Assembly (NCBI GenBank): GCA_020692235.1
Contig: JAIMKU010000001.1
Span: 71,481 to 122,026, forward strand
DNA: 50,546 nucleotides
Direction: 5' to 3'
Source: Hydrogenophilus sp.
GTDB taxonomy: Bacteria; Pseudomonadota; Gammaproteobacteria; Burkholderiales; Thiobacillaceae
Each line of letters begins with the position of its first letter. Position 1 is the first letter of the stretch. Positions 2,434-4,956 of this stretch are shown here, piece after piece. The notes under the pieces were generated by a model that saw only the letters and a program-made list of their open reading frames with translations, did not search any database and was not told the DNA's origin. Made by a program: the position numbers and the translations under genes.

Positions 2434-3186
2434 TCAACCCTCCAGCCTCATCCCCAGTATGACCACGCAGATGCCGGCGAGGAGCAGACCCAGTTGCACC
2501 GGAAAGTCATGGGGACGGCGATGTTCCTGTAACTCGGGGATCAGATCGGCCATCGCGATATAGACGAAGCTGGCGACCGCCAGCGCCATCACGTAAGGGA
2601 TGACGCCGCTGACGCCCTGCAAGGTCGACCAGCCGATGACCCCGCCCAGCATGGCGGCGGAGCCTGCGAGCACGTTCAGCCAGAGCGCTTCCTTGCGGCT
2701 GTGGCCGGCTGCGAGCAGGACAACGAAGTCGCCGATCTCGTGCGGAATCTCGTGGGCGATGACGGCGATGGCCGTAGCCAGGCCCAGTTTGACGTCCTGG
2801 ATAAAGCTCGCGGCGATCAGCACGCCATCGACGAAGTTGTGCATGGCACTGCCCAGCACGATCATCATGCCAGTGGCCGAATGGCCCTGCTCATGGCTGT
2901 GGCCACCCTGCTCATGGACATGATCGTGGCGCCACAAAGCGGTCTTCTCCAGGATGAAGAACAGCAGGATACCGACGACGATGGCGGTCCCTACCGACTT
3001 GATCTCAAGGTCCTTGGCGGCCTCCGGCAACAGGTCGATAAAGGCGACGGCGAGCAGAATACCGACTGAAAGCGCCACCAGTCGATGGGCCAGATTGGCC
3101 AGAATGGTCAGCGACAGGGTGGCTGCGGCGAATACCGAAAGCACACCACCGGCAAAGGTGGCAAGCAGGATATAGACGAGCGTCAT
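2434..3186 (-). CDS. ZIP-family divalent metal transporter
   Basis: This 250-residue inner-membrane protein has about eight hydrophobic segments and a His-rich cytoplasmic loop (HDHVHEQGGHSHEQGH) near residues 87-102. The two metal-binding helices carry HNFVDG and HEIPHE, the ZIP signature. ZIP proteins import Zn2+ or other divalent metals. A good AGGAA ribosome site lies 9 bases before the ATG. Its promoter overlaps two palindromes, and a Fur/Zur-type regulator gene lies just upstream, so Zn-responsive control is likely. Confidence 0.9.
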   Translation of the reverse strand: MTLVYILLATFAGGVLSVFAAATLSLTILANLAHRLVALSVGILLAVAFIDLLPEAAKDLEIKSVGTAIVVGILLFFILEKTALWRHDHVHEQGGHSHEQGHSATGMMIVLGSAMHNFVDGVLIAASFIQDVKLGLATAIAVIAHEIPHEIGDFVVLLAAGHSRKEALWLNVLAGSAAMLGGVIGWSTLQGVSGVIPYVMALAVASFVYIAMADLIPELQEHRRPHDFPVQLGLLLAGICVVILGMRLEG

Positions 3187-3221
3187 GGGGCTGATTCCTG
3201 GGATATATTAGGATGTTACCG

Positions 3222-3274
3222 TGCAACAGAGTTGCATGATACGGGGTGGCTGACCGGATCGCAACCTTGTTGCA
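3222..3274 (-). promoter_or_regulatory. ZIP promoter with paired palindromic operators (probable Zur boxes)
   Basis: Two copies of the dyad GCAACnnnGTTGC occur, TGCAACAGAGTTGCA at 3222-3236 and GCAACCTTGTTGCA at 3261-3274, with centres 38 bp apart. On the minus strand a promoter reads TTGCGA (3264-3259), a 17-bp spacer, then TATCAT (3241-3236). One palindrome covers the -35 box and the other starts at the -10 box. Repression by the adjacent Fur-family protein would fit this geometry. The protein-site pairing is inferred. Confidence 0.65.
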
Positions 3275-3282
3275 TCGGGCTA

Positions 3283-3744
3283 TTAGCCGGCGGTGGTTCT
3301 TTTATTGCGTGGCCGCGCCGCTTTCGCGCAGCCCGGACAGATGCCCTGGATGGTGAGTTCGGCCCGTTCGAACTGGAAGCCTTTGGGCAGGTTGAAGCCC
3401 AGCGCCGGGTGCAGGTCGTTGAGGCAAAAGACCTGGCCGCACTGGGTACAGCGGAAGTGGGCGTGGCCGTGCGCCTCGGGACCGGCGGCATTGAAGCGCC
3501 AGACCCGGTCCTCGCCGGCGATGCGGTGGGCATGGCGGCGCGCCACCAGCCAGTCCAGGACCCGGTAAAGCGTTACCCGGTCGGCGCTGATGCCTCGCTC
3601 CCGTGCATTCTGCTCGATCTCCTGGTGGGTCAGGGCGCTGGCGGCATCGAGCAGGATGTCGAGCACAACCTCACGCGCCGGAGTGGCCCTCTCGCCGGCA
3701 TTGCGCAGAATGTCGTGGGCCGGGATGTCGAATCGCTTACTCAT
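3283..3744 (-). CDS. zur: Fur-family transcriptional regulator, Zur-like
   Basis: The product is about 153 residues. It has an N-terminal winged helix (TPAREVVLDILLDAASALTHQEI, then VTLYRVLDWLVAR), a His-rich hinge (EAHGHAHFRC) and two CxxC pairs (CTQC, CPGC) for structural zinc. These are Fur-superfamily marks. Its location directly upstream of a ZIP transporter with palindromic operators supports Zur rather than Fur. The start MSKRFDIPAHD at 3744 begins one base after the yidD stop; an in-frame ATG at 3762 is an alternative that would overlap yidD. The zinc assignment is inference from context. Confidence 0.85.
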   Translation of the reverse strand: MSKRFDIPAHDILRNAGERATPAREVVLDILLDAASALTHQEIEQNARERGISADRVTLYRVLDWLVARRHAHRIAGEDRVWRFNAAGPEAHGHAHFRCTQCGQVFCLNDLHPALGFNLPKGFQFERAELTIQGICPGCAKAARPRNKRTTAG

Positions 3745-3745
3745 G

Positions 3746-3964
3746 TCACGGCACCGGGTCATGCCCGCCAGGGTGATAAGGATGGCAGCGACCGATGCGC
3801 CGGATCGCCAGCCAACCGCCCTTCAAGGCGCCGTATCGAACCACGGCCTGCCGGGCATATTCCGAGCAGGTTGGGGTGAAACGGCACTGACTGCCAAAGT
3901 AAGGCGACAAGGCGATTTGGTACAGACGGATCGCCCCGACCAGCAGTCGTTGCAGAGGGTTCAT
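3746..3964 (-). CDS. yidD: YidD, membrane protein insertion efficiency factor
   Basis: This 72-residue protein has the YidD/DUF37 signatures [27 protein letters not shown] and [14 protein letters not shown]. YidD is a small membrane-associated protein that helps the YidC insertase. It usually sits between rnpA and yidC. Here it stands apart, directly upstream of the Fur-family gene, with which it probably shares a transcript. Confidence 0.93.
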
Positions 3965-4021: not shown

Positions 4022-4831
4022 TTAGTCGGCGTACAGTTTTTCCAGCCGCTCGTGTTTTTCCTGGGCATCGATGGATAGATCGGCGGTCGGCCGAGCCAAT
4101 AGCCGCGCCAGCCCGATTGACTCGCCGGTCTCCAGGCAGTAGCCATATTCGCCGTCCTCGATGCGGCGCAGGGCGGAGTTGATCTTTTTCAGCAGCTTGC
4201 GTTCGCGGTCGCGGACTCGCTGCTCCAGCACGTTTTCCTCTTCCACGGTAGCGCGGTCGTTGGGGTCGGCGAAGATCTCGTTTTCTCTCAGGTGCTCGCC
4301 GGTTTCCCGTGCGCTGTCGAGCATCTCATCCTTCATGGCTTGCAGGCGATGCTTGAAAAAGGCCAACTGAACATCGTTCATGTAGTCCTTATCCGACATC
4401 TTGAGCAGCATCGCTTCACTAATGATATTAGCGTCGGTTTTATGTTTGACGGGCTTCTTGACGGTGGTTTTAGTCGCTTGGCTGGTTACGGGCATTGGTC
4501 TATTTACAGTTTTCCGGATCAGAGCCGGCTTGGCCGGCTTGGTGATGGGTTTAGGGGCGGCCTTGGCGGCCGCGACGGGCTTGGCGGCTGGCTTGGGTGC
4601 TGGCCGTTTCGGGATCGCAAGCGTCTTTGCTGCGACCTTTTTAATCGTTGGCGCAACGGTCTTTTTGGGCCGCGCGGCGGGTTTGGTAACTGGCCTGGCA
4701 GCCTGTTTCGGCGCTAACCTTTTGGCTGCCGCACGGGGCCTTACCACCGGCATTTTTGGGGCGGGTTTAACAGCCGTTTTTTTTGCCGCGGTCTTGGGCT
4801 TCACGGCGGATTGCTTAGTTGCAGTGGCCAC
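4022..4831 (-). CDS. DksA-like RNA polymerase-binding protein with H1-like N-terminal tail
   Basis: I start at GTG 4831-4829 because GAGGAG (4846-4841) lies about 7 bases upstream; an ATG at 4927 has no such site. The product has 269 residues. Residues 1-130 are almost entirely Lys, Ala, Pro and Val in PAKK/KPAA-type repeats, as in bacterial histone-H1-like proteins. The rest is a DksA domain: a coiled coil with the tip motif ADPNDRATVEEEN, which keeps the Asp and Ala used against RNA polymerase, then YGYCLETGESIGLARLLARPTADL. Only one of the four zinc-finger Cys remains, a pattern known in Cys-poor DksA homologues. The tail may bind nucleic acid, but this is inference. Confidence 0.85.
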   Translation of the reverse strand: MATATKQSAVKPKTAAKKTAVKPAPKMPVVRPRAAAKRLAPKQAARPVTKPAARPKKTVAPTIKKVAAKTLAIPKRPAPKPAAKPVAAAKAAPKPITKPAKPALIRKTVNRPMPVTSQATKTTVKKPVKHKTDANIISEAMLLKMSDKDYMNDVQLAFFKHRLQAMKDEMLDSARETGEHLRENEIFADPNDRATVEEENVLEQRVRDRERKLLKKINSALRRIEDGEYGYCLETGESIGLARLLARPTADLSIDAQEKHERLEKLYAD

Positions 4832-4956
4832 GCCTTGACTCCTCGAATGGTTATTGGAGATGAAAGTTAGTGGCGGATTATGCCATGCCTCGGACGCTTG
4901 GCTAGCGTCGCCTCGTCGCCTGGGCAAAATTCATCGCCGGCCTGGCGATAAAAGCC

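Follow-up and report, generated by a model that had tools for sequence, protein, structure and literature searches.

A histone H1-like N-terminal tail on the only full DksA of a Hydrogenophilus genome, and its recurrence in other DksA proteins

Results

The window analysed here, a 50,546-nucleotide stretch of a Hydrogenophilus sp. genome, encodes a DksA protein preceded by a long, strongly basic N-terminal tail resembling those of histone H1-like proteins, and comparable tails are predicted in DksA proteins from many other genomes. An initial annotation had placed a DksA domain behind a tail of ~130 residues at 4022-4831. This observation is confirmed, with the coordinates right and the gene on the minus strand; the plus-strand reading of the interval is ruled out by in-frame stops, the minus strand being open (Table 1).

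DksA domain and genomic context

The protein scores 134.7 bits against the TIGR02420 equivalog profile (cut-off 115.5) over residues 151-259, contains the Pfam domains PF21157 (DksA_N) and PF01258, and matches the E. coli DksA structure PDB 1TJL at E 4e-28. The acidic RNA-polymerase tip, DxxDxA, is intact as the initial annotation had stated, and is invariant across 27 relatives. Only one of the four cysteines that bind zinc in a C4 finger is left. Tail and zinc finger are uncoupled, as the four cysteines are kept in 29 of 43 long-frame genes sampled at class level, nearly all of them tailed. An AlphaFold model built from 27 sequences displays a coiled-coil DksA domain (pLDDT mostly 60-85) and a tail in coil (pLDDT about 42-56). 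Since its mean pLDDT is 60.9, we take the model as support for the fold only. The coiled coil and globular part match 4IJJ, 1TJL and 5VSW with probability 1.00, the best fold match being DksA2 (4IJJ), and the RNA-polymerase-bound DksA of 5VSW and 7KHI is matched as well. RelA/SpoT-family genes are found in the genome. As judged from its sequence, the protein is the main DksA of the cell, i.e. a regulator acting with ppGpp through the RNA polymerase secondary channel, of a betaproteobacterial type that lacks a complete zinc finger.

The initial annotation had proposed a search for a second, tail-less dksA. In the source genome (1.8 Mb, 97% complete), no such full DksA is found, the tailed gene being the only one above the TIGR02420 cut-off. 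The genome's one further DksA/TraR zinc-finger protein, of 132 aa and C4 type (L001), was rejected as a second DksA, with 43.6 bits against the required 115.5. This DksA/TraR-like protein (L001:1240-1638, plus strand) carries the sequence DSSDEA, a possible counterpart of the tip motif. In each of six other genomes sampled from the same genus, one DksA above the cut-off is listed, its open frame spanning 299-405 codons.

The neighbourhood of dksA, with yidD, a Fur-family gene and a ZIP gene, recalls the link to Zur of the cysteine-poor (zinc-finger-less) DksA paralogues in Pseudomonas (PMC2770081). Despite the Zur-like neighbour, no Zur box was found near dksA with a guessed palindrome pattern. 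Promoter and terminator scans gave results no better than on shuffled sequence. The Fur-family and ZIP genes (2434-3762) lie downstream of this cysteine-poor dksA in the same arrangement in the relatives L033, L036, L053 and L058.

Table 1. Features of the tailed dksA gene and its neighbours in the window
Feature	Position	Strand	Remarks
dksA with H1-like tail	4022..4831	-	269 aa; GTG start at 4831; stop 4022-4024
Ribosome-binding site GAGGAG	4839..4844	-	7 nt before GTG; AGGAG/GGAGG-like counterpart in Thiobacillaceae relatives L033-L063
N-terminal Lys/Ala/Pro-rich tail, residues 1-132	4436..4831	-	zero acidic residues; coil in model
DksA domain and its N-terminal segment, residues 147-269	4025..4393	-	profile matches, PDB match, model
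Coiled-coil tip motif DPNDRA (DxxDxA), residues 189-194	4250..4267	-	1TJL alignment, against E. coli DPVDRA
Degenerate zinc-finger region, residues 227-262	4046..4153	-	cysteine pattern C-T-S-A
yidD	3746..3964	-	directly downstream of dksA; usually near tailed dksA in relatives
Fur-family (Zur-like) regulator gene	3283..3762	-	adjoins dksA
ZIP metal transporter gene	2434..3186	-	adjoins Fur-family gene

Composition of the tail

Read by eye, residues 1-132 consist mainly of Lys, Ala, Pro, Thr and Val, with neither Asp nor Glu and no aromatic residue. A slightly longer cut of 143 residues contains 20% K, 22% A and 15% P, with two acidic and no aromatic residues and a net charge of +34. At a lysine fraction of 0.22, the tail stands well apart from every other 100-residue stretch of the window, whatever the frame; the next highest, at 0.16, is antisense noise. 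Over 31 tails, KPAA-type motifs occur 121 times when 22 are expected from shuffled tails. The tail thus has the character of those of AlgP and PhaF: long, disordered and rich in K, A and P, with KPAA-type repeats and hardly an acidic or aromatic residue. The H1-like resemblance noted in the initial annotation is borne out at this level of composition and repeats. It does not extend to known profiles: the HC2 profile (PF07382, histone H1-like) has zero matches genome-wide, and a Pfam search of the tail gave no match. A search with the tail, of low sensitivity for such a sequence, revealed no other K/A/P-rich protein in the genome; a weak second match (L224) was rejected, being antisense to a P-type ATPase. 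The genome also contains four HU-family open frames, of only 101-136 codons. In the open-licence literature, we found no paper calling any DksA tail H1-like. Overall, the tail is a strongly basic, predicted disordered, H1-like extension at the N-terminus of DksA.

Translation of the tail

The initial annotation read the ribosome site as supporting translation of the whole tail, and comparison with relatives strengthens this reading. The start codon and an AGGAG/GGAGG-like ribosome site are found at the same position in relatives from nine genera, and in L033 a stop six codons upstream of the GTG shuts the frame, with no start codon in between. In frame-neutral nucleotide alignments, the indels within the closest pairs all have lengths divisible by three (30, 27, 18, 12, 69 and 9 in the tails of the window protein and L033; 6, 6, 12, 66, 15 and 6 in those of L050 and L074). 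Taking 12 pairs together, 66 of the 108 indels have such lengths; most of the others stem from diverged or repeat-rich pairs whose alignment is unsure. Substitutions in the 12 pairs number 205, 128 and 355 at codon positions 1, 2 and 3, respectively. Codon alignments, made protein-first and so biased to low values, give dN/dS of 0.13-0.58 for the tail and 0.01-0.23 for the domain. The conserved ribosome site and start, the in-frame indels and the excess of third-position substitutions, together with proteomics and start-codon mutagenesis of the long-form DksA in Xanthomonas euvesicatoria (PMC5559785), all argue for translation of the tail. These comparisons give good support to a frame that is coding and conserved over its full length, tail included.

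A mis-read start, with the true N-terminus near the DksA domain, is suggested by the ATG codons at the beginning of the domain (MLLKMSDKDYM) and by the short N-terminus with which Xanthomonas dksA was formerly annotated (PMC5559785), but it is very improbable and already mostly refuted: in the 20 genes inspected, the internal ATGs where the domain begins have no Shine-Dalgarno-like site in front of them, while the upstream start and its site are conserved, the tail shows a coding pattern in indels, codon positions and dN/dS, and the Xanthomonas long form is backed experimentally.

The open frame opposite the tail (4401-4838, plus strand) was rejected as a gene; it is the same kind of artefact as XCV2557 of Xanthomonas (PMC5559785). 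Nearly all Thiobacillaceae relatives share the GTG start codon of the tailed DksA (4829-4831), and GTG also opens the long form in Xanthomonas. A weak start codon conserved in this way may hold down DksA synthesis.

Tails across Thiobacillaceae

All 30 orthologues fetched besides that of the window, from nine genera of Thiobacillaceae (g1-g4 and g7-g11), carry a tail of 25-295 residues. Each starts with GTG, except for ATG in g11, and each has an AGGAG/GGAGG-like ribosome site. The shortest tail (L059, genus g10) has 25 residues and a net charge of +3.

We then placed these proteins in a tree of 109 DksA domains, made with a quick method on 126 columns and with many forks unresolved, in which a betaproteobacterial type (the window protein, Cupriavidus, Herbaspirillum) is split from a gammaproteobacterial type with support 99. 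The DksA matches listed at ~170 bits, from genera g5, g6 and g12 (L003-L032), are C4 proteins of the gammaproteobacterial type, and the seven of them placed in the tree form a single group within that type (support 100). The gamma-type DksA of these three genera was probably acquired by transfer. Among the matches listed, g5 and g12 have the gamma type only, and the tailed genera, at that score level, the tailed beta type only; Thiobacillus (g6, a name deduced by us) has a gamma-type DksA plus an untailed beta-type copy. In g6, absence of the tail from the beta-type gene therefore coincides with the presence of a second DksA, a pattern of one lineage only and beyond statistics. This single family offers a natural comparison: most genera have one DksA only, with a tail, and Thiobacillus pairs an untailed DksA of the beta type with one of the gamma type.

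Tails beyond the family

From a class-wide search of 369 genomes, we fetched 40 of the matches listed, each with an open frame of at least about 205 codons. By a simple criterion, 35 of these 40, and three more loci, have a lysine-rich tail, in about 25 families; note that this sample was picked for long frames among the matches listed and is not a prevalence. At the order level, a long tail would not fit in most of the DksA frames, but it is present in a few of the long-frame genes fetched (L257, L259, L260, L263, L264 and L271). The DksA of Cupriavidus has a conserved extension that is less basic. When tail status is mapped on the tree, 11 changes are counted, five of them forced by well-supported branches, which indicates that the tail was gained or lost repeatedly. 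Within the predicted proteins sampled, the H1-like tail is a recurrent DksA variant, neither a unique fusion nor peculiar to the source genome.

Three gammaproteobacterial DksA tails (L163, L202 and L219) are nearly pure Lys/Ala/Ser repeats, L163 with a repeated SKKK, and are more basic than the tails of Thiobacillaceae.

Discussion

By analogy with AlgP and PhaF, for which it is proposed, and CarD, for which it is known, tethering to DNA is the likeliest role of the tail, and we give it about an even chance of being right. The tail would bind DNA without sequence specificity, like the KPAA peptides of AlgP, and, once bound, would hold DksA on the nucleoid. Retention there would raise the local concentration of DksA at promoter-bound or transcribing RNA polymerase, and DksA action would thereby be coupled to the state of the nucleoid. 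The variable length of the tail suits a segment whose overall charge and reach matter more than any defined fold. The initial annotation had suggested that a DNA-tethered DksA could act on RNA polymerase in a location-dependent way; by the same analogies this is reasonable, and that earlier interpretation is on the whole partly supported. Three observations bear on how far the role may reach. The 25-residue, +3 tail of L059 and the tail-less beta-type DksA of Thiobacillus indicate that DksA can do without the tail; the processed form reported in Xanthomonas suggests that part of the DksA pool may be tail-less; and the association of AlgP, which has the same repeat, with polyphosphate granules suggests that the target of the tail may not be DNA.

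The tail could instead be a weakly constrained disordered extension, kept mainly by repeat turnover and tuning the solubility, expression or stability of DksA with no specific binding. Its length varies over more than tenfold inside one family, it evolves much faster than the domain, and the relatives include short-tailed and untailed DksA genes. We nonetheless consider this reading rather unlikely, as lysine content, absence of aromatics and the KPAA pattern survive the turnover of the sequence, a similar composition turns up again in separate lineages (five or more changes being forced on the tree), and dN/dS of the tail is below 1 throughout.

The main rival to DNA as the target holds that the principal partner of the tail is polyphosphate (or RNA), DksA being sequestered or released according to the polyphosphate level. 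AlgP is found at polyphosphate granules (PMC9239181). Lysine-rich sequence is a tight binder of polyphosphate; in Pseudomonas, proteins bind it through regions of this kind (PMC12077175). DksA regulates polyphosphate accumulation in E. coli, according to the title of a reference cited in that paper. Polyphosphate and ppGpp are both part of the starvation response, and a polyphosphate kinase is encoded in the source genome. The polyphosphate-binding Pseudomonas proteins have, however, nine lysines in 20 residues, four of them in a row (PMC12077175), whereas the lysines of the window tail are spaced, with no KKKK, and we judge this alternative unlikely. Note that binding of polyphosphate and binding of DNA are not mutually exclusive.

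Assuming DNA tethering, a wider picture can be drawn, which we put forward tentatively and with more doubt than trust: H1-like nucleoid-binding tails would have been gained repeatedly by DksA in beta- and gammaproteobacteria, the stringent response would operate there via a DksA attached to chromatin, and the E. coli DksA of the textbook model, which has no tail, would be only one form of the protein. DksA has been studied mainly without a tail. If many DksA proteins have tails that bind DNA or polyphosphate, they may differ from the tail-less form in how their concentration, location and choice of promoters are set, an effect that would escape constructs lacking the tail.

Several known systems share one or other trait with the tailed DksA. 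DksA2 of Pseudomonas aeruginosa (4IJJ) has the same globular fold and an incomplete zinc finger, and DksA proteins without the finger can act like DksA (PMC9239242). DksA2 is, however, an extra copy without a tail (129-136 residues in the structure), whereas the cysteine-poor form of the window is the only full DksA.

The DksA of Xanthomonas euvesicatoria starts at an upstream GTG, giving 256 residues instead of the 147 annotated, as established by MS/MS peptides and start-codon mutagenesis; a processed form was observed as well (PMC5559785). It shares with the window protein the upstream GTG, the N-terminal extension and a rejected overlapping antisense ORF, but belongs to a gammaproteobacterium, and the accessible text of the paper treats the extension as a correction of the start site, without reference to its composition or function.

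AlgP (AlgR3) and PhaF of Pseudomonas have a disordered Lys/Ala/Pro tail with KPAA repeats in variable number, likened to the histone H1 tail. The KPAA tail of AlgP, similar to that of PhaF, is required for the spacing of polyphosphate granules, and a tail fragment of AlgP and KPAA peptides bind DNA (PMC9239181). These tails are C-terminal, and what carries them is a helical domain in AlgP and a granule-binding protein in PhaF, not a regulator of RNA polymerase. CarD of Myxococcus xanthus differs in its unrelated polymerase-binding fold (Tudor-like, binding beta) and in its HMGA-like tail being C-terminal; like the tailed DksA, it joins a polymerase-binding module to an unfolded tail, and this intrinsically unfolded tail binds DNA and is needed for full activity (PMC4374960).
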